Source: Antedon mediterranea (taxonomy: Eukaryota > Echinodermata > Crinoidea > Comatulida > Antedonidae). From it: a stretch of DNA of 64,000 bases. Every line of letters begins with the position of its first letter. The first letter of the stretch is position 1. Location: positions 16,712,922-16,776,921 of the forward strand of contig NC_092678.1 in NCBI RefSeq assembly GCF_964355755.1. Reading direction: 5' to 3'. The notes below the pieces were generated by a model. It searched no databases. It saw only the letters and a program-made list of their open reading frames with translations, and had not been told where the DNA came from. The position numbers and the translations under genes are program-made. Shown here in pieces: positions 47,727-63,995 of this stretch.

Positions 47727-48208
47727 TCAAAGTTTGGTATTTGCAATCCTACGTCGCGGATTTGACATGGCAGTGCTGCTTCCAGTGGCTTCGGTCCGTA
47801 GACAGCAGAAACAACTCGCCCACGCATCTCGGACATCCTTACGACGAATACAGAGAAATACGAAGATAACAAATCCTTGTAGGGAATTGAATACGCAGAA
47901 CAACAATTGGAACGAAAAACGAACTGCGTCAGAAGAATGAATGGAGAAATATCCGAAGATCCACGTTAAGCCAAGCAGCATCATTATCGATATGGCTTGA
48001 CGTAGGCGTGTTGTCAGCTCGTCCATTTTACTTTTATCCTTCAGTTTTGACGACGTTACTGTTCGTTGGCAAGTCAGTCCTCGAATGATTAATACGAACA
48101 TGACCATGTTGATGAAGAGGACGATAGATGAGATGAGTAACAAACCGAAGTATAACGGGTTTCCAGGTTTCATAAAACAACTGAGTGGGCAAATGAAGGT
48201 TAAATTTT
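47727..48208 (-). CDS. adhesion GPCR exon: ECL2, TM5-TM7, C-tail
   Basis: The acceptor is aataacag just before 48208. It opens with ENLTFICPLSCFMKPGNPLY (the ECL2 cysteine), TM5 FGLLLISSIVLFINMVMFVL, an RTVTSSKLKDKSKMDELTTR intracellular loop, TM6 with GLTWIFGYF, and TM7 with NSLQGFVIFVFLCI, the conserved adhesion-family TM7 motif. A short tail ends at TAG/TAA after RRRIANTKL at 47727. The first ATG of the open frame (48173) is internal, not a start. Confidence 0.88.
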
Positions 48209-51099
48209 CTGTTATTGATTGTATACATGAAGTATAAACGTTTTAGTAAAACTTAAGCGTAAACGTATAAAGTCAATTTTATAATGGGTAATCTTATTGC
48301 AGAATATTAGTAAATAATGCATGCGTTTAAATACCGTACTAGTATCAATATTAGCACTACAAGTTGCATTAGTATTAAATAGTATGGAGCTATTGCAGAT
48401 TCAACAGCATGTGTTGTAAATTGTAAGTACTGTAAATCAAATAGTTTTGGTCTTTCACTGAATAGATGTCTAGTTTAATCATACAGTTTAATCATTATTT
48501 AGCCAATATCGTGGATAGACAGAGTGCTGAATACTCGGGTCACAACAGTCCCGAATTAACAATAGTAAGGCCAGGGCAAGAAGAAGTCTCAGCCTTTCAT
48601 GGTTAGGATTAGCCTACTGTTACGGCAATTGTCTATGGGCCTAAAACGACTGCGATCTACCGGTTGGCCTATCTCAAACGTTGTTTTGCAGTTTTTGGAA
48701 TAGCTCAATAAATAGAAACTTACTAATCGCCATTCGAATATGTTTCATCACACTTCACAGCAGCAATGAGTGTAACTGGTATGATAGGAAGAACTGTTCA
48801 AAAAGAAATAAGCAACACTTTGTTATTTATCCTGATGTATTTTAAGATGTACATTTGTGTATTGTTTTTATTTTTGTTAATAATATATTTATGCAAATAC
48901 CGAAGGATAGTTTACTGAAGAGTCTATAAGGTCTGGAACGAAGCGATATAGGAACTACTCCGGTACGGGGTTGAGGGATGCGTACTGACACGGTGCTATG
49001 CTTTAGTAATAATAGTACGGCAGCTTAAATGTATCTACTTACCCCAGCCAATTAAAGCAGACTTTAACAGGAAAAAACGTATTCCATCGTAAAACACTAA
49101 AACGAATTGCAGATACATATTAACGGCTTCGACAAGCATCCAGAAAAGTGTTGTGAGAACAAAGTAATGTAGAAGAATGGCTACCACGATGCAGCAATTG
49201 GGACACGATGTTAAGCCAATACCGACCACAAATGTAGTGTATAGTAACAACAAAGAAAAACACAGATTGACCAGTATACGTTGGGGACGTTTTCCACGTA
49301 ATTTTCTAAATAAATTTTTAAAGAATAACAAAACCACGTTGTTATAAATTTAATTTTAAGTGTTTGTTTAAGATAAAGTATAAACATGTTTTATAGACCT
49401 ACTAAAATTGCTGTTAATAATATAATACAATATTATTGTGGAACTGAAATAGACACATTCCTGACAACCTAATGTACAATGCACATTTACATCATCGTGA
49501 TGCTGTATATTGGCTCAGAGTACATTTACAGACACTTGATTAGAAAATGGTGAAAGAGAAAATAATGAAATCATAATACAGCCCCTAATGTATGTAAATT
49601 TAGTTTCTTGTTTTTTACATCTTACCTGAAATATGTAAATGTAACAATCATAAATACCAAGCAAATGATAGAAATGACACAACCAATGATGCTTATGTAT
49701 GTAAGTACATCCTCGAATGTAGTGGTTTGGCCGGCTTGTCCAGAGTAATCCTGCCCAAAAAAACAAATATGTATACTATACACACATTCACATGAACAGG
49801 TCAATCAAACAAACCATGAATCTAACGATTGATGACATTATGCTGTTGGGTTTTATGGGGCTTTTTTATTGTATCTATTTATTTACTGAACAAAAATGTT
49901 GTTGGGACGAAGGTAAGTTAGAACCTTTGGCCCAATGGCACTATATGAACCATCTCGGTGTTACGTGGCATGTCTTTTAAAAAAAACACCATAATATTAA
50001 ATAAATAACCAAAAATTATGAAAATATAACGAATACATAATATGAAAGTAGTACTGACCATTATGACTGCAAAGTTTGTTAAATGGTCACAGAAGCAGAC
50101 GATACTATCGTCTGATGTTGTGTTGTAGTAACAGCCTTCGTTAGACCAATCACCATGTCCGTTTTGCAATGTAAAATCCCAGAAAACACACTCAGCGTAA
50201 TCAAGTTCATCCTGTGTTAAATACAAATATAGTTATGCTTTCTTTTAAATAATTTCACGATAAAACAATGATCATATATTACCAAAGAAGAAAACAATAT
50301 TGGTAAAATATGTCTCACTAAAACTCAAATTTATCATCATTTTAACATGATATAATATATATTTATCTTTGCTATGTTAAATGTGGATGAAATCACACTT
50401 TAAGATCATCAAACGCCTAGATGGGGGTACGTGTATCTTATAGTATGTCAATGTCCATTTCTTCTGAGCGTGAACATAATCACTGGGTCACCTAGTTCTT
50501 ACCTCAACTGGTAAATATTTGAATTTGATCGGTTCTCGCAGACCTTTTACTATAACCTTTTCAACTGTAGCCGAAATTATAAGACTTCCAATCCGGCTGT
50601 CGTTAATCAATTTCAGACGATTAGATGTAAATAACTTAGACGTTCCATAGACAATGAAGCTCACTTGAGTCTTGTTTAAACCGGTTTGATTTTGACTTAA
50701 TTCAACAATTTCAGGAGGTAAAAAGACTGATGCCTCCGTCTTAAAAGTGCCCAATTCTTCTTTATATGTGTGAATATTCTTTTTTTGAAAACCGGTTCCA
50801 GAAGTATCATCAATCAAATATCCAATGCCATTCCTTAATTCATCAGGAAGATACTGTTTGGTATGCACAGCTATATTCTTCTCAACCGCTTCGTAGTCTG
50901 AGAGTGATGCTAGCTGAGCTTCAAGCGACCGTATGATACTGGAAGTTGAAGCTATGTCTGTTAAAAACAACTCATCATCAACATTCTGTAGGTTACTCAC
51001 AATATTGACTGTAAAGTCGGTTACCTGAAAAATAAATGATATAATATAATAACTAAATTGTCATGTTTTCCCTACTCTAACTTAATTCTGTCCTTTACA

Positions 51100-51141
<42 letters not shown>

Positions 51142-54100
51142 GAACTCGAATGGTAACTAATCCTTCTATACAAAGATAAATTGGGTCATCCAAAATATAT
51201 TGTGATATTTGTTTCTTGAAATATTATATTCATAATAAAAACACCTAAACAATACAATCTAAATCTGCAGGACAGAAGCAGTAAAGTGAATGACAGAGCG
51301 GTTAAGAAAGTACAACACTAATACAGTCATACTAAGAGGCAAGGGTTTGACGCTCACTCACTCGATCCCTGATTCACAGTCATGCGTTTGTGTGACCATG
51401 ACTATTTTAACTTATCAATACATAGAACATAACATGCAATTAGATAGAAGCAGTTAGATCACTCAGTTAATTGACAAAATACATAACAAGTTATAAGAAA
51501 GAAATTTACTCTTTCATTCCCAGCGCCTACGTCAGTTAAACATTTAAGAATCAAGGCAATGGCACCAATAGTAACTTCTTTTTCTCCGTTATATTCACCG
51601 GTAATTATTGATAACTGCCAAGCAACAGCTTCTGCATTTTCTTTAGTTACGTTTACCTAAAAAATCCAAGAAAGTTATAATTTATCAATGGTAGTTTCAT
51701 TATATTATAATGAAGGAAAATAAATGACATACGGTAAATCTAGGATACAACAAATCAATTGAAGAAAATTAATTAAACATTAAAGCATAGACATTTAATT
51801 ATAATTACATATTTACGAAGAGATTAAGTAGTATTGTATTTTTAATGCAAAATAATGACATGACAGAGAAAGAAAGTATGTTTCACTTATAAATAAAACT
51901 TATCTGAAACTGTGTGCATAATTATAATGAAATAGCATTAAGATTAACTTTGGTTGTGGGTACAAGCTTACCTCTTCCAACTCAGTAATGTTATATTTTT
52001 TGAAAGGTTGAAACTCAGAAATTACAGCAAAGTTTGTTAAATGATTACAAAAGCAGACGATCCGATCATCTGATGTTGTGTTGTAGTAACAGCCTTCGTT
52101 AGACCAATCACCATGTCCGTTTTGCAATGTAAAGTCCCAGAAAACACACTTGTGGTTACCAATTTTTCCTTCCTATATTGAATACAATCATATACATTAT
52201 GTAATATTAATCTGTTTTACGCAAGTCACAATAAAAATACACACAATAAGAAAATTCAACTTTTATTACGGCGCGTCTCGATGTTCAACTAACACTATGT
52301 GCATGCCTATTTTTTGGAGTGTTTACTTACCACAACCGGTAAATATGCTGCTCTAATCGGTTCTTTTAAACCTTCAACTGTGACGTTTTCAACTGTAGCA
52401 GAAATTACTAGGCTTCCAACTACTCTGTCTTTATTTAACATCAGACGATTGGATTGAAATAACTTTGATGTCCGATAAACTATGAATCTCACTTGGATCT
52501 TGTTTGAGCCCGTCTGATTCCGACTTAAATCAATAATATCAGGAGGCAGAAATATTGACGTGTCTATCTTCCTGGTTATCAAGGCTTCCGCTTCGTGAAA
52601 TGTGTGAATTTTTGTACCTTCAAAATCGGTGGCAGACGTGTTATTTATAAAATATCCAATACCCTTGTTTAATTCATCAGGAAGATACAGTTTGGTATGC
52701 ACAGCTATATTTTTCTCAACCGCTTCATAGTCTGGCATTGATGCTAGCTGAGCTTCAAGTGACCGTATTATCCCAGAAGCACCAGCTGTACTTAGACTAT
52801 CTGTTGAAAATAGTTCCTCATCAGCATTTTGTATGTTACTCACAACTCTTAAAGTTGCGTTGGTTACCTACAAATTCGAGATGTAAAATTACGATTACTA
52901 TTTCCTAATATTTTCAACGAATTGTAAGCTTGGTTTCCACTACGATGCAAGTTAAAGACGTACCGTAAGCCGCAAGTAATTAGACTAATCACGAAGCGAT
53001 GTATGACGATTATCCATCACCTAAAAATGTGCGTTGCTCTTACATTACGGTATACTTCATTGCATTGCGTCTTATTGGGAATCAAGCTTTAACGTGTTTC
53101 CCTATTATTCAACATTTTTATTGCCATGGCATCAAACTTTATGACAAAACAATATGATGTGCCCATATGGACACAATGACATTTAATCACTATTATATTT
53201 GTACTTATGTGGCCAAACATGATGGTATTTATTTACAAAGATTAGTTAAGCATTTAAAGAAAATAATTCTGTATCGTGAATAATCATCAACCAATTATGT
53301 ATATAAATGACTCAAAGTTAGATAAAACAATATCTAACAATATATATAATACATATAGTTGAAATTACTTACTAGTTTATTTCCCGGGCTTACGTTAGTT
53401 AAATCTTCTAGAATCAAGGCAACGTCATCAATATTAGCTATGTTGTGTATATTTTCTTCACTAGTAACGGTTGACAAATGTGTGGCAATCGCTTCAGCAT
53501 TTTCTTCAATCACATTTATCTAAAACAAATGCAAACAATCTTTTAGTATTATCGATAGATAGAATACGGCGACTACAAAACTACGCGGTTCGGTCTCGCA
53601 CCAATAGATTATTTTTATAAACAAAAGAGAGTCATAAAAAAGCTTATAATTCCTTTTCATAAATAAGATAGAAAGGTTCAATTCAATTCTAAAAAATGGT
53701 AACACTATAACTATGTACCTATTACATATGATGCGATACGGACATTTATGTTAAGGTAATGGACTTCTAGGCCTATCTAAATATAATAATCTTTATTGTC
53801 TTTCTTTCTTGTTTGTTCTTTTGCACATACATAAAATCAAAACTAAAGACAAAAGACCAAAGAAAAAGCTTTCGCTTATCAAGTTTTGGCCTTTTAAAAT
53901 AAATAACTAGAACGTATATCATTGCTGAGAAATAAAAATCTGAAGAAAATTAATTACATAAATGAAAATTAATAACTCACTGGCACTATCAATATGAATA
54001 TGAAATAAGTAATAGAAGAATATTATACACATTTTTTTGTTTGTTTTTTAAATAGAAAAAACTAGAAAAAAAAACTAAAAAAAACTAAGCATCATATAAG

Positions 54101-55582
54101 GTTATTAAATGTTCTTTGACTTTGATGGCAAATTGTGTTCTAAATGAAATTGACTTAATATTTACTGGGAGTTTATTCCAGAGTTTGGGACCTTGGTATG
54201 TTATATTGGTTTGAGATAGAGTCGTACGGCAAAAGGGGATCAAGAGATTAAACGGGTCATTAAATCGGCTGTTAAATGGATGGTTTACATAGGTAAAGTA
54301 TAGTATAATATGATGAGGTAATCTAGAATAAAATAAATCGGAAACAAATTTAAGCACATGCAACTCATACAATTTAAACACATCTAAAATCAACAATTGC
54401 TTAAACAAATGTATAGAATGTGCTCTAAAATCAGAAAACGTAACACAGCGAACGAACATCTTTTGAATAAGTAGAACTTGGTTTAAGTAACTTAAATGTG
54501 TACTTCCCCATACTTCAATACCATAGGTAATTAGTGTTAAAATAAATGATTTATAAATTAAGATCTGAGCTTGCCGATACTACATATGATGCGATATGGA
54601 ATTGTACGTTAAGGTAATGGACTTGTAAGCCCATCTAAGCTTGCCGGTAATGGACTTGTAGGCCTATCTGAGCTGGCCGATAATGGACTTGTAGACCTAT
54701 CTGAGATTGCCGGTAATGGACCTGTAGGCCTATCAGAGCTTGCCAATAATGGACTTGTAGGCCTATCTGAGCTTGCCGATAATGGACTTGTAGGCCTATC
54801 TGAGCTTGCCGGTAATGGACTTATAGGCCTATCTGAGCTTGCCGATACTTGACTCACTGCCTTATAATCTTGTGGTTTGTTACCTTCATTTATTTAAAAA
54901 AAATCATTTTATTCATTTGAAAAAAAACACTTTCAAGTGGATTACCCAATATAAAATAAACAAAATTCATTACGTAGCAAAAAACATAGGCCTAATATAT
55001 TATCCTACCTCTGCTAATTCATCAATGGTGTAGTTTCCGCATAGTTTTACTGTAATTGCTCCCCAGATTCCTACTGCTCCAAGTAGATTGCGATTACACT
55101 TTCGCTCTGCTAATGAACCTAATAAGAAATATGCATGATAATATTTGATATATTATATAACACCTAAATAATTTCTGTCATTATTACTGGACGATTGTTC
55201 GTCATATGGCGTAGACTTATTTTATTGTGTACGAAGAAAAAAAAACATCTCGCGTACTAAAAAAAAAATCTGCGTGCGGAAATCCAATAACAGCACTGTC
55301 TGTTCGATTGGAAGCAGTGACGCTCATGGCGGGTTTCTCATTCACAAAAACAAGATCTGAATAATGTCGATGAAAATGACAAAATATATTTGGATATTAA
55401 ATAAAATAAGTAATGAATAAACGGTAAAAATAATGTCATGAGATGAAATATATAATTCTTGTTTCACTGGGCTTCGCCTCGAGTAAATACTATTTAATCT
55501 TTCACCTCATAAAATTATTGGTATTGTCGCACTCATAAACATTCATTATTTGTATATTTTTATGAACTAATGTGACAGATTA

Positions 55583-55613
<31 letters not shown>

Positions 55614-57389
55614 TTTCCTCATCTTTATCGTTTCAAATTAATTAATTAAATTTCAGTATATCACCGGGCGGTTTAGAATTAATGTTCATTGCCTGATGTG
55701 TTTATATATATAAAAGTATCTCTTCGGAGATCCCGCCTCGTGAATAAAAATACTGAAAGATGAGGGCGTATCAATTTAATCTCTGGTGCGCGTGCGTACA
55801 ACTGAGGACTAGGTTGGGGCGACTTTTTCTCATTCTCACAGATTTCCTCATCTTTATCGTTTCAAATTAATTAATTAAATTTCAGTATATCACCGGGCGA
55901 TTTAGAATTAATGTTCATTGCCTGATGTGTTTATATATATAAAAATATCTCTTCGGAGATCCCGCCTCGTGAATAAAAATACTGAAAGATGAGGGCGTAT
56001 CAATTTGGTCTCTGGTGCGCGTGCGTACAACTGAGGACTAGTGCTGTTCCACCGTACCGCGCCGAGAATGTTAAAGAGTCGCTATCCAATCGAGTTTGAA
56101 CAATACCATGAAAGCCCCAGTGGTCTAATGGTTAGGACATCTGCATATCAAGCAGACGGTCCGAGTTCGAGTCTCGGTTGAGGCGACATTTTCTCATTCT
56201 CACAGATTTCCTCATCTTTATCGTTTCAAATTATATATATATATATATATATGTCTCATCAGACAAAGATACCCCTATACCAGGAAGCCCTTAAAGAAAG
56301 CGGATATTATCCTCAACTTGAATTCAATGCTGAACAGCAGAAGCCCAACAACTCGCGTACCAGAAACATAATTTGGTTTAACCCACCATTCAGCAAAAAC
56401 GTAGCAACCAACATCGGCCACAAGTTTTTAGCTATAGTAGAAGATTGTTTTCCTGCCGGCAACAAGCTCAGAAAAAATATTTAACAGAAATACCTTGAAA
56501 CTAAGCTACAGTTGCTGGTCGTACGAAACAAATTTGTAGTGATTAAAACAATGACGTAACCAAGTTTTCTGCTGTTATTTTAGTTATTTATTTATGCTCT
56601 ACCTTGGTATTGAGCGATGGCAAATGGAGCGACAATACTCGCAAAGAAAAAGAAAACCACTGGGAATTACTACTTAAAACCACACAACCTTTTGGACTTA
56701 ACATTAGGAACATACTCCCAGATCGGTAAAATTATTCCATTGACTACCAAAATTTAAGTTTCAATATTAACCACCATTTAAGCTGTTTTTTAGTCTCATT
56801 CCAAAATTGTTTATATCTCTACCAAGCTACCTTCTTTGTTTTCTACTCTTATTCAGACTCCACCCTGGCTCCCTTTGTTATATTTCTTATATTCCTGTCC
56901 ACCCAGGCAGCACTTGCCAGCTTTATACTATGACGTTATCCAAACTCCTTCACTTGCACTGATGAAGGGCTAGTGTTGCCCGAAAGCTCTGCTAACTTTT
57001 CTGGCTGTTTACTTTATCGTTTTGATTTAGCTTTTCGCTTTTTATTTTTGTATCTCCATTGAGATCCAGCCACTGATACCCACAGCATTGTCATTTTTTT
57101 CAGTAATTTGCCTTTGGATTTATATATATAATTAAATTATACTGTGATGCTTGGAACACTGAAATACTGTATACTTTTAATAACTATGTACAATAACTAC
57201 CACAATATTATAGTATCCAAAGACTAGGAAGTTCTAAAGAGGTTTGAAAAATAGCATACATAACAATGTTATTGAACTTACTGTTATCTATACCACACAA
57301 TTCTATAGAACTCGCTAACATTTCCAACGATGTATATTCAAATGTATAGTTTACATCTTCAACCATTACAACATCATGTGGGCAACCAT
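47727..57389 (-). CDS. adhesion G-protein-coupled receptor with tandem GAIN-GPS modules, 5' partial
   Basis: Eleven exons on the - strand, in transcript order: 57389-57282, 55118-55009, 53519-53373, 52867-52331, 52172-51972, 51656-51510, 51024-50503, 50211-50059, 49750-49626, 49305-49043, 48208-47727. All have AG/GT borders and every junction keeps the reading frame, giving roughly 930 residues. Adhesion GPCRs self-cleave at the GPS within the GAIN domain; the freed stretch acts as a tethered agonist for the 7TM domain. Here the GAIN-GPS module occurs twice in a row before TM1. The 7TM part (LRGKRPQRILVNL, CFMKPGNPLYFG, LRQAISIMMLLGLTWIFGYF) resembles the ADGRG-type group; this subfamily guess is tentative. 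The N-terminal exons lie further right and were not securely found. Confidence 0.85.
49043..49305 (-). CDS. adhesion GPCR exon: TM2-TM4
   Basis: Acceptor ttatttag before 49305 and donor gtaagt (plus-strand acttac 49037-49042). It reads KLRGKRPQRILVNLCFSLLL (loop 1 and TM2), CPNCCIVVAILLHYFVL (TM3 with its conserved Cys), FWMLVEAVNMYLQFVLVF and FLLKSALIGWG (TM4). It starts and ends one base off codon borders, matching both neighbours. Confidence 0.87.
49626..49750 (-). CDS. adhesion GPCR exon: post-GPS linker and TM1
   Basis: Acceptor gggcag before 49750 and donor gtaaga after 49626. The linker DYSGQAGQTTTFEDVLTYIS is followed by TM1 IIGCVISIICLVFMIVTFTY. The phase begins at 0, so it joins the GPS exon at 50211-50059 directly. 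Confidence 0.85.
50059..50211 (-). CDS. adhesion GPCR exon: second (membrane-proximal) GPS
   Basis: Acceptor aacacag before 50211 and donor gtcagt after 50059. It reads CVFWDFTLQNGHGDWSNEGC then CFCDHLTNFAVIM. The four GPS cysteines, both Trp residues and the HL/T cleavage triplet are intact, followed by the usual TNFAVIM tethered-agonist start. It is almost identical to the upstream GPS exon up to the NFAVI. Confidence 0.9.
50503..51024 (-). CDS. adhesion GPCR exon: second GAIN core
   Basis: Acceptor tttttcag before 51024 and donor gtaaga after 50503; phase 0 at both ends, 174 codons. It begins VTDFTVNIVSNLQNVDDELF and contains SIIRSLEAQLASLSDYEAVE, VHTKQYLPDELRNGIGYLID, SVFLPPEIVELSQ and SFIVYGTSKLFTSN, ending KFKYLPVE. 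It is a clear paralogue of the exon at 52867. The strand-rich region before the GPS is the GAIN B subdomain. Confidence 0.85.
51098..51141. repeat. (TA)n microsatellite
   Basis: About 20 TA units in the intron between the second GAIN exons. Confidence 0.9.
51284..51385 (+). mobile_element. SINE fragment (tRNA-derived)
   Basis: gtgaatgacagagcggttaag followed by aagggtttgacgctcactcactcgat resembles the head of the SINE at 31585 (gagtggccgagcggttaag and gaggttcgaggctcactcac) with many changes. An old, partial copy lying in an intron. Confidence 0.5.
51510..51656 (-). CDS. adhesion GPCR exon: second GAIN A part
   Basis: Acceptor ttttttag before 51656 and donor gtaaat after 51510; 147 bp, phase 0. 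The peptide VNVTKENAEAVAWQLSIITG through ALILKCLTDVGAGNER is a paralogue of the exon at 53519 (INVIEENAEAIATHLSTVT), with the same length and phase. Confidence 0.82.
51972..52172 (-). CDS. adhesion GPCR exon: first GPS, with extra tail
   Basis: Acceptor caatatag before 52172 and donor gtaagc after 51972; 67 codons, phase 0. It reads CVFWDFTLQNGHGDWSNEGC and CFCNHLTNFAVIS with intact cysteines, Trp residues and HL/T site. Instead of ending there, it runs on into EFQPFKKYNITELEE, which resembles the end of the exon at 55118 (CGNYTIDELAE), so this exon looks like a fusion of a GPS exon with a GAIN A entry exon. It leads in frame into the next GAIN module. Confidence 0.85.
52331..52867 (-). CDS. 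adhesion GPCR exon: first GAIN core
   Basis: Acceptor atttgtag before 52867 and donor gtaagt after 52331; 179 codons, phase 0. It contains VSNIQNADEELFS, GIIRSLEAQLASMPDYEAVE, VHTKLYLPDELNKGIGYFIN, SIFLPPDIIDLSRNQTGSN and VRFIVYRTSKLF. It is paralogous to the exon at 51024 with a few small insertions. Confidence 0.85.
52927..53088. mobile_element. MITE (same family as 10331)
   Basis: The ends AGCTTGGTTTCCACTA and (inverted) AGCTTGATTCCCAATA match the TIR AGCTTGGTTCCCACTAG of the 10331 element, and inner cgttacgt-like words also pair. The flanks are GTA on the left and TTA on the right, consistent with a TTA duplication with one mutation. Located in a receptor intron. Confidence 0.65.
53373..53519 (-). 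CDS. adhesion GPCR exon: first GAIN A part
   Basis: Acceptor gttttag before 53519 and donor gtaagt after 53373; 147 bp, phase 0. The peptide is INVIEENAEAIATHLSTVTS through VALILEDLTNVSPGNKL. Its helical, charged character fits the GAIN A subdomain. Confidence 0.82.
54050..54580 (-). mobile_element. 5'-truncated LINE fragment
   Basis: C-terminal region of a non-LTR retrotransposon polyprotein: LITYGIEVWGSTHLSYLNQV upstream, then FRAHSIHLFKQLLILDVFKL and ITYQGPKLWNKLPVNIKS, open from 54459 to 54085. The YGxExWG, FKxLxIL and YQGPKLWN words are typical of the region after RT in several LINE clades. It lies in the receptor intron between 53519 and 55009, on the same strand as the gene. Confidence 0.72.
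54568..54848. repeat. 33-bp minisatellite
   Basis: About eight copies of a 33-bp unit (ggtaatggacttgtaggcct plus atctgagcttgcc). Because 33 is a multiple of three, the - strand reads as an 11-residue repeat (SASSDRPTSPL), but this has no splice context and is taken as a by-product. Confidence 0.9.
55009..55118 (-). CDS. adhesion GPCR exon upstream of the first GAIN
   Basis: Acceptor cttattag before 55118 and donor gtagga after 55009. The peptide SLAERKCNRNLLGAVGIWGA then ITVKLCGNYTIDELAE has the spaced C...G-x-WG...C pattern found just before the GAIN domain in several adhesion GPCRs (hormone-receptor-motif-like region). It joins the neighbours at 57282 and 53519 in frame. Confidence 0.75.
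55590..55609. repeat. (TA)n microsatellite
   Basis: A run of TA at the left edge of the 229-bp direct repeat; a second run occurs at 56232-56251 at the end of its third, partial copy. Confidence 0.85.
55610..56231. repeat. 229-bp direct repeat, two copies plus a fragment
   Basis: Copies start at 55610, 55839 and (partial) 56203 with cagatttcctcatctttatc. The two full copies are almost identical and include ctcttcggagatcccgcctc and gcgcgtgcgtacaactgagg. Copies 1 and 3 are each preceded or followed by a ggcgac-tttctcattctca block that also follows the tRNA-like sequence at 56114, suggesting a composite SINE-like repeat. Located in an intron of the adhesion GPCR. Confidence 0.8.
56114..56185 (+). 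tRNA. tRNA-Asp-like sequence (anticodon ATC), gene or SINE head
   Basis: Folds into a full cloverleaf of 72 nt: acceptor GCCCCAG with TTGAGGC (one C-A mismatch and one G-T), D arm GTCTAATGGTTAGGAC, anticodon stem TCTGC/GCAGA with loop ATATCAA, and T arm CCGAG-TTCGAGT-CTCGG. Box A and box B are intact and TTTT follows at 56188. The anticodon would be ATC instead of the standard GTC of Asp. The block after it is repeated elsewhere in the same intron, so a tRNA-derived SINE is the likelier reading. Confidence 0.5.
56251..57125 (+). mobile_element. Penelope-like retroelement remnant
   Basis: Open to 56484 with RNIIWFNPPFSKNVATNIGH and KFLAIVEDCFPAGNKLRK, a stretch between the RT and GIY-YIG domains of Penelope-like elements; after a frameshift it continues IFNRNTLKLSYSC. 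Further on, ENHWELLLKTTQPFGLNIRN resembles the end of the GIY-YIG region. The 3' part has the conserved cactgatgaagggc ... gcccgaaagc motif. The RT is missing. Located in a receptor intron, on the strand opposite to the gene. Confidence 0.7.
56959..56997 (+). ncRNA. hammerhead-ribozyme-like core in the Penelope remnant
   Basis: CTGATGA followed by a stem-loop AGGGC-tagtgtt-GCCC, then GAAA, then GC-tct-GC and TA: the order and spacing of a minimal hammerhead (core, stem II, core, short stem III, UH). Penelope-like elements are known to carry such ribozymes. The flanking bases that should form stem I (cacttgca and acttttct) do not pair well, so this copy is probably inactive. Confidence 0.4.
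57282..57389 (-). CDS. adhesion GPCR ectodomain exon (most upstream securely seen)
   Basis: Acceptor tcttttag before 57389 and donor gtaagt after 57282; 108 bp. The peptide GCPHDVVMVEDVNYTFEYTS then LEMLASSIELCGIDN has two cysteines, which with those of the next exon could form a small disulphide-bonded module before the GAIN domain. It begins two bases into a codon, so further exons exist upstream. Confidence 0.72.
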
Positions 57390-58165: not shown

Positions 58166-58371
58166 GACACTGAGATCTCCTTGTCGTTACTGTCTTTGAT
58201 ATTATGTCTGGTTTTGACAAATTCCAACAGTACAGTATGTACATTTTCTCCGCGGCTCGCGGTATCTGTTAAAGGGGCCTGGAACTGATCGTCAGAGCTC
58301 AGTATCCTGTTTTTAGATTGCACCGGAGTCAAAATGCCCTGTATAACTTTGGTTTCTTTAAAAAACTTACC

Positions 58372-58460
58372 AGTACACAACCTATATCTCTACCAACGTC
58401 ACGTACGAAATCAGTATCACATTCACACGAGTGGGTAGAAATTGGATCATAACACACCCC
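58372..58460 (-). CDS. possible EGF-like exon of the adhesion GPCR
   Basis: On the - strand NGVCYDPISTHSCECDTDF then VRDVGRDIGCVL is followed by a good donor (ctg|gtaagt at about 58371). The C-x(7)-C-x-C-x(n)-C spacing fits the second half of an EGF module. No AG acceptor lies close upstream, so it may be a relic or part of a longer exon. The link to the receptor is inferred from strand and position only. Confidence 0.35.
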
Positions 58461-58976
58461 ATTTGCAGATTTATACAAGTAACAATAGTAATAATAATAA
58501 TTAAATACACCAGGTTTCACAAACAGTATCGACAACTTTAAAATGTAAAAGGAAAACATTGATGTCACATTAGATATTTAAATTCGACACATAATCTACG
58601 AAAGTTTACGAAACTATGCTTCGTTATAGAAAACCATTTACATTTTTAACATAGTCCTACTGTACACATGAATTTTTTCAGTCAAAGAGAGCATTTATCG
58701 AAACGTAATAATAGTGGGTTTGTCAACATGCTGCTTATGATTAATTTTAAATGCAAGGGATTTAGGTGACATAGTATTTCACTATGCCGATAAAATGGTT
58801 TTGGGACTTAATGACACAACATTTGCCCTTTTAACTCCTCAAAATGAGTTAACTTAAACAGTCATTGTAATCGTTAAAATCACAAGAATATAACCATACA
58901 CCTAACAATCTAATTTACAATCTAAATTAAAACAATTTTCATAAGTGCAACGTCTATCCTCGACGAAAACCGCGGT

Positions 58977-60858: not shown

Positions 60859-61311
60859 TTATAAATGTGAAAAGGTAAACTTGCAGTCAAGGGACTTCCA
60901 ATGATCATTGAGGAGTGACTTGAACAGATTTAAATTTGGAGCTTTTACAACATTAGATGGTAAGTTATTCCACGAGTCCACAACTCTACAACTAAAGGAA
61001 AACTTCCTGGAATTAAGCCTAAACTTGTTTTTATATAGCTTGTATTCATGACCTCTAGTTCTATGACAATCAACAAATGTAAACAACTTTCTGCATTCTA
61101 TAGCGTCAAGACCATTTATAATTCTGAAGATTTGGATCATATCCACTCTTAATCGTCTGTACTCCAGTGTAGGTAAACCCAAAAACTTCAATCTATACGG
61201 ATATGCCAAATGTTTTATTTCTGACAATGATTTGGTAGCTCTTCGTTGAACTGAGTCGATTTTCTTAATCAGTCCAATTTGATGAGGTGCCCAGACACAG
61301 CAAGATAGGGC
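60859..61311 (-). pseudogene. CR1-like ORF2, C-terminal region
   Basis: In the frame after the shift near 61310: VWAPHQIGLIKKIDSVQRRA, then LAYPYRLKFLGLPTLEYRRL, RVDMIQIFRIINGLD and FSCRVVDSWNNLPSNVVKAP, ending at 60859. This is the standard post-RT region of CR1-like elements. A few codons (corresponding to the usual RPxLEYCxPVW) are damaged at the junction. Confidence 0.85.
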
Positions 61312-61982
61312 GGACTAAAAATATGTATAGACTAAGAAACATATCCTTATCGTTGTAACAAAAAGTCCTTTTGATGAGACCCACTATTTTATTTGCCTTA
61401 GCAACACAGCAATTTTTATGATAATCAAAGTTCAATTTATGATCAAAGTATACTCCGATATCCTTTTCTATAGCAGTCTCTTCAATTTTAACTTTATCTT
61501 GTACATTTACAAAATACTCATTCTTCTCATTTGTTTTCCCAATATACAACATCTTGGACTTGTTGGCATTGAAAGGTAGTTGCCATCTGGTCGACCAATT
61601 AAACATAATATTATTATCAAGTGAGATCTGCAATTGTTCTTTGGATTCCCCATAATCATAAACGTTAGTATCATCAGCGAACATCTTAACTTCTGATACT
61701 GCAACTTCAGGCAAGTCATTGATAAAGAGTAAGAATAAAATCGGACCAAGCACACTTCCTTGCGGAACACCACTTATCACATTCGACCATTTCGCCAGAG
61801 TCCCAATTAACATTACTCGTTGTCTTCTACCTTTTAAGAAGTCTTGCATCCAATTATAGACGTTACCGGAGATACCATAAGCTTCAACCTTCCTTAACAG
61901 TCTCATATGAGGTACACAATCGAAGGCCTTTTGGAAGTCCAAATATGCCACATGAATATCACGCCCATCATCTAAAAGCTTA
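61265..61982 (-). pseudogene. CR1-like ORF2, reverse transcriptase palm
   Basis: Contains VAYLDFQKAFDCVPHMRLL (first catalytic Asp), VISGVPQGSVLGPILFLLFI and VKMFADDTNVY (FADD), then LPFNANKSKMLYIG. It is in the same frame as the upstream part and separated from it only by a TGA at 61983-61985. The frame is lost near 61310. Confidence 0.88.
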
Positions 61983-61984
61983 GA

Positions 61985-63532
61985 TCAATGTTCTACTATC
62001 TCTAATAGTTGCGTTGTTGTGGATCTACCGGACCTAAAGCCATGTCGATGTTCCGATAATAAGTTATTGTTGACAAAATGCTTAATTAAAGAATCTCTAA
62101 CAATGCTTTCCATAACTTTACAACAAACAGCAGTCAAGCTAACAGGCCGATAATTATTTACTTCCACCCTGCTTCCTTTTTTTAAAATAGGTACAATATG
62201 AGCTTCTTTCCAATTCCGAGGAACAATACCTTCTTTCAATGAATTAGAAAACATTTTACTTAGCGGCTCAGAAATATAAGTTCTGCACTCTCTTAAAATC
62301 ATAGGGTGAATACCATCAGGTCCTGGACGCTTAGTCACATTTAACTTCTTTAAATATTTTACAACGATTTGGGGTGATATTTCAACTTCAGAACAAACTG
62401 TATCAAAAACTCTTCTTTGAAACTCTGGTACGTTATCAATATCTTCCCTTACAAAAACTGTAGAGAAAAAAGTATTAAGTATCTCAGTCTTGGACTGATC
62501 ATCACTGTGTGTCACATTGTTCTCATCTTTCAGGGATGGTAGTCTCACCTTAACCTTGGTTTTGGAGTTTACATATCGCCAGAATGATTTGGGTTTCTGT
62601 TTTATTTCGGAAGCAATCATTTTTTCAAAGTTCCAAATGGCCTTCCTTTTCATGGATGTTACTTTATTTCTAGCATCTTTAAATTTTGCTTTATTAGATC
62701 TGCTTGGACAATGGTTATACCTAAACCATGTTTTTCTTTTAAGCTTTATCATTTTCTTCATACCCTTGTTTATCCAAAGAGGCTCTTTGACCTTACTGTT
62801 GTCCCCCTTTTTTGCCTTGGGAATGTGCCGTCCACTAGTTTCTGCAATAATTTCACTAAACAAATTCCAACACTCTTCTGTTCCACCATTTTCAAATTTC
62901 CCCTCCCAATCAGTCTTTTTTAGTTCTTCATTTATTTGAACATAATCACCATAATGATAATTTGGTTTTAACAAGATATTGTCTTGCGACTCAATGTAAC
63001 AATCAAATTTAAATGTTAATACTGCGTGATCGCTTTTACCGAGTCGTGCACTGTAACAAATGTCATCGATCATGTCCTCTTCATTTGTAAAAACCAAGTC
63101 TAAAAGACTAGGATTCTGTCCATCTCTAAATCTTGTTGCTTGTGTTACATGTTGAAAGTAAAAATGATCCTGAACCCAGTTCATAAAATTTGTTCCATCA
63201 TGACTATCAGAGTATCCTGATGCTTGATTAATCCAATCAATGCTACCAAAATTAAAATCACCAGTTATTAATAAATGTGAAAAGTTAGTGCAGCATATAT
63301 TACTCAACTTATCCAAAAATAAAACGTTCTGCTCCTGACTATTACTAGGGCTCCTATACGCACAAACTAACAGTAAGGAATCATTGTTTTTCAATGAAAG
63401 TTTCACACAAATAATATCTCCAATATCTCCACTGGATGATTCTGTCACATATCCACATAAATCTTTTTTTAAATAAATGGCAACACCTCTACCGTCAAAA
63501 TTTGTAGAAAAAAATACTTGATATCCATCCAT
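61985..63532 (-). pseudogene. CR1-like ORF2, endonuclease and RT N-terminal half
   Basis: Open for 515 codons. The endonuclease part has MDGYQVFFSTNFDGRGVAIY, LLITGDFNFGSIDW (Asp and Asn of the active site), and LGKSDHAVLTFKF (the SDH motif). A linker leads to RT motifs RPGPDGIHPMILREC, PILKKGSRVEVNNYRPVSL and HGFRSGRSTTTQLLEIVEH, ending in TGA. The first 50-60 residues of the endonuclease are missing. The ATG is simply where the open frame begins, not the original start. Confidence 0.87.
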
Positions 63533-63554
63533 TTCATTGTATAATTTGCATTTA

Positions 63555-63995
63555 CAGGATCAGCGAAAATGTTCTTGGGGTCTTTGTATAATTTTACCCC
63601 TGGAGATAAATAGATTAGGTTCACCTGCACTAATTCGCTCCTGCAACTCTACTCTCAGCTTTCTATTGGATTCTCTTTGTTGGAATGTTAAATCCGGTGA
63701 AATATATACATTGTTTTCCCATCCTTCTAATTTCTCTTTTAGTTGCTATTTCCGTACACCACACTCTTATCATTCTTGACCTTCTGATATTTTTATTCTG
63801 ACCAGACACTTCCTTGGGTGTTATCCTTGAAATATGCATTTCGCTTGGTTGAAGTATTAATTTATCAAGAATACAATTTATTTTATCCTGGTCACTAGAT
63901 TTTTCCTCTTGGGAAACACCATCTGGAGCCTCAGGGACTCCTTTAAAGATCAAATTATTAACTCTCTTATCCCTTTCTCGATGTTCTCGCACCAC
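63555..63995 (-). pseudogene. CR1-like ORF1, C-terminal part
   Basis: Reads KRVNNLIFKGVPEAPDGVS, INCILDKLILQPSEMHISRI, MIRVWCTEIATKREIRRMG, then after a frame change near 63690 LTFQQRESNRKLRVELQERI and NLFISRGKII. This is the RRM-like domain and C-terminus of the ORF1 nucleic-acid-binding protein of this LINE type. The N-terminus lies beyond the window. It runs straight into truncated endonuclease sequence, showing a deletion. Confidence 0.7.

Follow-up and report, generated by a model that had tools for sequence, protein, structure and literature searches.

On the minus strand of a 64,000-nucleotide stretch of the crinoid Antedon mediterranea (the window, that is the whole stretch analysed, positions 16712922-16776921 of contig NC_092678.1, here C9) lies a predicted adhesion G protein-coupled receptor (GPCR) gene which, as modelled, is an ADGRG6-like receptor gene carrying two whole modules of a GAIN domain with its GPCR proteolysis site (GPS). 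The modules, termed A and B, follow each other ahead of a single seven-transmembrane (7TM) domain. We consider it probable, with some doubt left, that the gene encodes one receptor in which two complete, self-cleavage-competent GAIN-GPS modules stand in series before the 7TM domain, and that this layout came about, most likely, by fusion of two related genes. The evidence is the open exon series, the independent fit of each module to a GAIN domain, and a chimeric GPS exon at the border between the modules. Positions without a contig name are those of the window, and the genome searched comprised 354 Mb in 18 contigs.

Two GAIN-GPS modules ahead of one 7TM domain

The original prediction had placed two consecutive, intact GAIN-GPS modules before one 7TM domain, and this layout was recovered: the exons are present, a Pfam GPS match falls in each module and the exon of the first transmembrane helix (TM1) comes next. 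The intervals it had given for the six module exons (A1 to B3 in Table 1) are exact to the base, and these exons are open and in phase 0 as it had claimed, with lengths that are all multiples of three, frame 0 and AG/GT borders. Spliced from exon H (55118), which precedes module A, through A1-A3, B1-B3 and four 7TM exons, the frame stays open for 908 codons with GT/AG introns throughout, and its stop codon ends at 47727.

The exons of A and B are paralogous in order, with 23 of 49 identical residues between A1 and B1, 115 of 174 between A2 and B2 and 41 of 51 between A3 and B3 (47, 66 and 80%), at an overall synonymous divergence (dS) of 0.63 and nonsynonymous divergence (dN) of 0.225. A blastn comparison of the A region with the B region recovered the three exon pairs, with E-values of 5e-17, 2e-97 and 2e-53 and nothing further better than 0.08; the introns did not align. 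The same figures bear on an assembly error or unresolved haplotype, by which one module would have been placed twice. Paralogues of such kind are generally known to cause such errors often, but the main exon differs between A and B at 34% of aligned residues, and the junction within A3, described below, is absent from five other GPS exons that were compared. This explanation, to which we give hardly any probability, was rejected on the divergence of the modules together with their non-aligning introns.

A GAIN domain is expected to span about 280-320 residues in two subdomains and to be terminated by the GPS; module A with 279 residues and module B with 274 fit the GAIN domain of ADGRG6 nearly end to end. 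Searched alone, module A matched the ADGRG6 structure 6v55 over residues 2-281 (1.7e-21) and module B over residues 2-274 (8.6e-18), while the Pfam family for the GPR128 GAIN subdomain B gave matches only below its cut-off. The 7TM domain is of the secretin/adhesion class, with PF00002 (7tm_2) matches of 9.4e-20 and 3.5e-13 on two parts, and its best solved relative is also ADGRG6 (1.6e-43). As an adhesion GPCR should, the gene has a GAIN-GPS, that of module B, directly before the TM1 exon; at the gene level its two complete modules depart from the single-GAIN layout, which is the usual one and not a formal definition.

Table 1. Features of the receptor gene in the window (positions of the window, 5' to 3' along the gene)
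Feature	Position	Strand	Remarks
EGF-like exon, only 3' part recognisable, use uncertain	58342..58465	-	85% DNA identity with C9:15.93 Mb
HormR-like domain, first half	57282..57389	-	split codons at both borders (2 nt at the start, 1 nt at the end)
Exon H: second half of HormR-like domain, with linker to GAIN-A (..CGNYTIDELAE)	55009..55118	-	AG/GT, open
Exon A1: start of GAIN module A	53373..53519	-	aligns to start of ADGRG6 GAIN
Exon A2: main GAIN exon, module A	52331..52867	-	66% identical to B2, 65% to C9:14.93 Mb
Exon A3: module A GPS and in-frame copy of exon-H tail (..FKKYNITELEE)	51972..52172	-	GPS E 2.6e-16
Predicted cut of module A, L/T of HLT	52037..52038	-	HLT codons 52043-52035
Exon B1: start of GAIN module B	51510..51656	-	AG/GT, open, aligned to A1
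Exon B2: main GAIN exon, module B	50503..51024	-	91% identical to C9:15940979-15941500
Exon B3: module B GPS, Stachel adjoining TM1	50059..50211	-	GPS E 8.1e-16
Predicted cut of module B, L/T of HLT	50079..50080	-	HLT codons 50085-50077
Exon TM1	49626..49750	-	7tm_2 match, splice model; joins module B in phase 0
Exon TM2-TM3	49043..49305	-	7tm_2 match, splice model
Exon TM4 to extracellular loop 2	48724..48793	-	joins in frame
Exon TM5-TM7, cytoplasmic tail, stop	47727..48180	-	7tm_2 3.5e-13

The chimeric exon A3 and the ancestry of the modules

A feature absent from the original prediction is that exon A3 continues for 16 residues where its sister exon B3 has already ended. The five other GPS exons compared end at a GT that lies just after FAVI (or a like motif) and one residue, whereas A3 has no GT at this usual donor position and continues for SEFQPFKKYNITELEE up to the donor GTAAGC. 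Its last 27 bases are identical at 22 positions to the tail of exon H in the nearest paralogue, which is located at C9:15.93-15.94 Mb (P1594). A comparison of that P1594 tail with all 34,946 positions on the two strands of a 17.5 kb region containing the gene gave 22/27 at two sites only, the end of A3 and the H tail of the window itself, and 16/27 at the next best. Between themselves these two tails agree at 19/27, and eight further exons of the gene have tails that match that of P1594 at 5 to 14 of 27 bases. Aligned through the donor, the tails of A3 and of P1594 exon H share 28 of 33 bases, a local score reached by none of 2000 shuffles. The best local match of A3 is not the window's H exon, and past the donor no alignment was found between the A3-B1 intron and the H-B1 intron of P1594. 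These alignments show A3 to be a chimera, in which a GPS exon is joined to the terminal part of an exon that usually stands ahead of a GAIN domain. Since the linker into GAIN-B and its splice donor are retained, splicing of A3 to B1 is expected, and we infer that both modules would be present in one transcript.

The most economical history for such a scar is a deletion, or an unequal exchange, that took place between two receptor genes and by which the GPS exon of the upstream gene would have been joined to the H-exon tail of the downstream one, in frame and inside the exon. The 7TM part of the upstream gene and the N-terminus of the downstream gene would thereby have been lost, and the downstream donor and the linker into GAIN-B would have been retained.

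The structure of A3 also bears on two other explanations of how the gene is read. Modules A and B could be alternative cassettes, so that transcripts use one or the other and only ordinary single-GAIN receptors are made. The joins of H to B1 and of A3 to TM1 are both in frame, all module exons being in phase 0, and one module is the rule in nine paralogous loci (see below). But the end of A3 copies an H tail, and the donor of that tail lies ahead of B1, as would be expected of an H-B1 join; A3 also lacks the donor by which other GPS exons reach TM1, and omission of a three-exon cassette would need coordinated skipping; we regard cassette use as unlikely. Alternatively, two products could be made, the receptor and a secreted HormR-GAIN-A protein that arises when the A3-B1 intron is retained. 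Translation past the A3 donor would meet a stop after 23 residues, and the 315-base intron contains ATTAAA and lacks AATAAA, but the GTAAGC donor is canonical, and this possibility appears very improbable.

How common are neighbouring GPS exons in this genome? At least 139 GPS matches were found genome-wide (150 of 180 candidates were scored, hence a lower bound), and among them 11 same-strand neighbouring pairs lie less than 9 kb apart, ten of these in one array on C7 and the remaining one in the window gene. The C7 array (C7:2.28-2.32 Mb) comprises eleven GPS matches spaced 2.9-5.7 kb and extends to about 2321000. It was considered as a many-GAIN receptor and rejected, as the 9.9 kb read there (C7:2284000-2293900) is a recent tandem array of GPS frames, TM1-like frames and a gag-like frame, with repeats of more than 1.3 kb that are 97.6-99.5% identical. 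Searches with B2 and with A2 listed 20 matches each, of which 17 were C9 exons: two belong to the window gene, two lie at C9:18.97 Mb and 13 are single. Nine of these 13 single loci, in which all three module exons were located, were used and four were left out; none of the nine has a second same-strand GPS within 9 kb in the list of at least 139. At C9:18977833-18979053 a GAIN exon is doubled by a 719-base tandem repeat, 100% identical, before a single GPS, which has its origin either in a very recent duplication of the exon or in the assembly.

In P1594 the H exon is followed directly by one B-like module and a 7TM domain. This locus thus shares with the window gene the HormR-like exons, the linker, a B-kind GAIN-GPS and the 7TM domain, and differs in having one module only and in carrying in-frame stops, which fall in its GPS exon and its EGF-like exon; the reference copy of P1594 is probably a pseudogene. 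It may formerly have had module A and then lost it. From 51114 to 47700 the window is about 89-90% identical to P1594 including introns, and three 7TM exons that were compared are 93 to 96% identical, whereas exons H and B1 reach only 75-79% (for H, 79% DNA identity across 156 bp). Because of this difference, which includes introns on the higher side, the 3' block is suggested to have been copied or converted between the two loci later.

In a tree of all three module exons module B and P1594 pair at 100/100, and a weak fork (81/86) places A outside these two and the 14.93 Mb gene; a tree of the main exon by itself does not resolve how A, the B pair and the 14.93 Mb gene branch. B1, which lies outside the copied block, is 65% identical to its P1594 counterpart and 47% to A1. 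Taken together, a separate ancestry of modules A and B is supported. The original prediction had presented the modules as a duplication, of which the paralogy of the exons stands; a simple in-place copy was rejected as the full story, since B is sister to P1594 with A outside, and A3 carries the tail of an H exon as an apparent scar of gene fusion.

Upkeep of the gene and its upstream part

The fused tail of A3 gives an approximate age of the joining. Five mismatches to P1594 among 27 coding bases, or among 33 with the donor, correspond to 0.17-0.21 per site, i.e., 0.085-0.11 per site per lineage, which is counted on very few bases. When the module exons of B were allowed to diverge without selection in a simulation, the copies still open out of 2000 numbered 367 at a distance of 0.05, 83 at 0.1 and 1 at 0.3. 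The openness of A is therefore moderate evidence of its upkeep since the fusion, and would be strong only if the fusion is old. The ratio dN/dS is 0.25-0.37 for A against six relatives other than B, 0.35 for A against B and 0.18-0.53 in the 21 pairs without A, the pairwise value for B against P1594 being 0.53.

These values have to be set against the explanation that the gene is a decaying or dead fusion gene, with an open frame and yet no working receptor. The stops in the sister locus, the truncated EGF-like exon of the window, the dN/dS of 0.53 between B and its sister, and a fused tail that permits a young fusion, at which 4 to 18% of neutral copies would have kept an open frame, all speak for it. 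But every splice site is kept along the 908 open codons, the cleavage residues are retained in both modules, and the three 7TM exons have stayed close to those of the sister. Decay appears to us fairly improbable.

The 5' part of the gene is less clear than its modules. Ahead of module A, exons 57389-57282 and 55118-55009 encode a putative HormR domain, judged from a Cys/Trp pattern ahead of GAIN; the two exons join in phase, with the last base A of the former and GT of the latter forming one codon. The first-half exon is 74% identical in protein to the C9:15.93 Mb paralogue and 60 and 55% to two further paralogues. The Pfam family HRM did not match either half when each was scanned apart, and the halves joined with two surplus residues gave no related match in the PDB. 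In the intron between H and A1, 33-base tandem units are present at 54613-54893 (self-match of 79% at offset 33). Farther upstream, exon 58465-58342, presumably EGF-like as labelled by eye, had no Pfam match, and its 5' half is replaced by TTA-rich sequence; judged from a reading of the flanking phases, the frame would survive its skipping. The intron upstream of the HormR-like exons contains frames at 60862-63559 that were named by eye as LINE-like endonuclease and reverse transcriptase. Beyond the window, on the same strand, Pfam found an LDL-receptor class B repeat (6.5e-8) and a PAN domain (PAN_1, 1.7e-12), and no CUB domain was found among the selected upstream open reading frames scanned. 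The exon of the class B repeat has a counterpart at P1594 (C9:15.94 Mb); for the PAN frame, which may be part of the gene, no counterpart was found within the 16.1 kb searched there.

Several observations weigh against a single working receptor with two modules derived from a gene fusion. The N-terminus is unsettled, given an EGF-like exon without its 5' half and the LINE-like frames in the upstream intron. An AlphaFold model of exons A2/B2 failed (pLDDT, the predicted local confidence, of 33). The sister signal of B and P1594 comes partly from the 3' block that was apparently copied recently between the loci, and as that sister is pseudogene-like, the window gene could be on the same path. 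Should the fusion be young, A would owe its intactness to earlier selection, since at a distance of 0.085-0.11 between 83/2000 (at 0.1) and 367/2000 (at 0.05) neutral copies would be open. Finally, as every module exon is in phase 0, the frame is kept when A (55009 to 51656) or B (51972 to 49750) is skipped.

A side result of the genome search is a bindin match (2.3e-28) at C1:15552879-15553076, with one stop in the matched stretch; bindin is a marker of echinoderms, and the match points to that group. COX1 gave no match, and neither did mollusc haemocyanin, for which the controls were silent as well.

Predicted cleavage at two seams

The four Cys, both Trp and the HL/T site that had been reported for both GPS exons are indeed kept, in the arrangement C-V-F-W ... 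W-S-N-E-G-C ... C-F-C-x-H-L-T-N-F-A-V. As determinants of cleavage PMC13062082 lists, beyond the H-X-S/T motif, Phe S10.49 that holds the catalytic His, Gly before Cys S12.50, and flaps; Phe S10.49 sits just before Trp S10.50, which is given in PMC11697300. Judged by the H-X-S/T motif, Phe S10.49 and the Gly-Cys motif, both modules have the determinants, as HLT, CVFW and EGC. According to PMC13062082 a canonical motif may fail to cut, HLS being insufficient in ADGRB2, and for this reason cutting stays a prediction; on the residues kept, we infer that both modules would be cut at HL/T.

Cuts at 52038/52037 and 50080/50079 would yield three pieces: an N-terminal piece that ends in HL, a middle piece running from TNFAVISEFQ to the HL of module B, and a C-terminal piece that starts with TNFAVIMDYSG and includes the 7TM domain. 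The ectodomain would thus be held by two non-covalent seams in series. In published models, as outlined in the 2026 consortium review (PMC13197933), a seven-residue agonist becomes free for the 7TM domain once the N-terminal piece is lost, and pieces can also be shed. The seam near the membrane (B) would free this usual tethered agonist, only the strand of module B being joined to TM1. The outer seam (A) may provide a second break point for shedding or force, its Stachel being tied via the 16-residue linker to GAIN-B only; because the A strand is joined just to the linker and GAIN-B, opening of this seam would shed the ligand-binding end while the 7TM agonist stays masked. That the receptor is cut at two serial GAIN domains into three non-covalent pieces, with the outer seam as a mechanical fuse or shedding switch that sets ligand release apart from agonist exposure, is a tentative proposal, which we hold to be possible and short of probable.

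Among known receptors ADGRG6 (GPR126, subfamily G) is the closest comparison, being the best solved relative of both GAIN modules and of the 7TM domain and having a HormR-like region ahead of GAIN, as the window gene putatively has. Upstream, ADGRG6 carries pentraxin and SEA domains. The part of PMC13197933 consulted adds an upstream CUB domain. The window gene differs from ADGRG6 in its two GAIN-GPS modules and in the upstream frames of an LDL-receptor class B repeat and a PAN domain. Polycystin-1 and the sea urchin receptor-for-egg-jelly proteins have one GAIN domain each. They resemble the window gene as GAIN carriers that self-cleave at the GPS, as stated in the parts seen of PMC13197933 and PMC11697300, and differ from it in the membrane part. 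Titles and abstract beginnings among the full-text literature matches listed, a partial coverage with few subscription papers, named no receptor with a double or tandem GAIN. Domain databases may contain architectures that have two GPS. No tandem-GAIN layout is described in the parts available of the 2025 GAIN numbering paper (PMC11697300) or of the 2026 consortium review, and PMC5548486 was considered as a double-GPS precedent and rejected, as the 'two GPS' there are two GPS mutants.

Must the N-terminal piece leave in order to free the tethered agonist? This is a central question in adhesion GPCR biology, and two serial seams, if they are real, would offer a natural test of it: as the outer Stachel is not joined to TM1, removal of either cut site would separate shedding from activation. 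The fusion of a GPS exon to a HormR-side exon would, moreover, be a concrete route by which GAIN domains could be stacked in this family.

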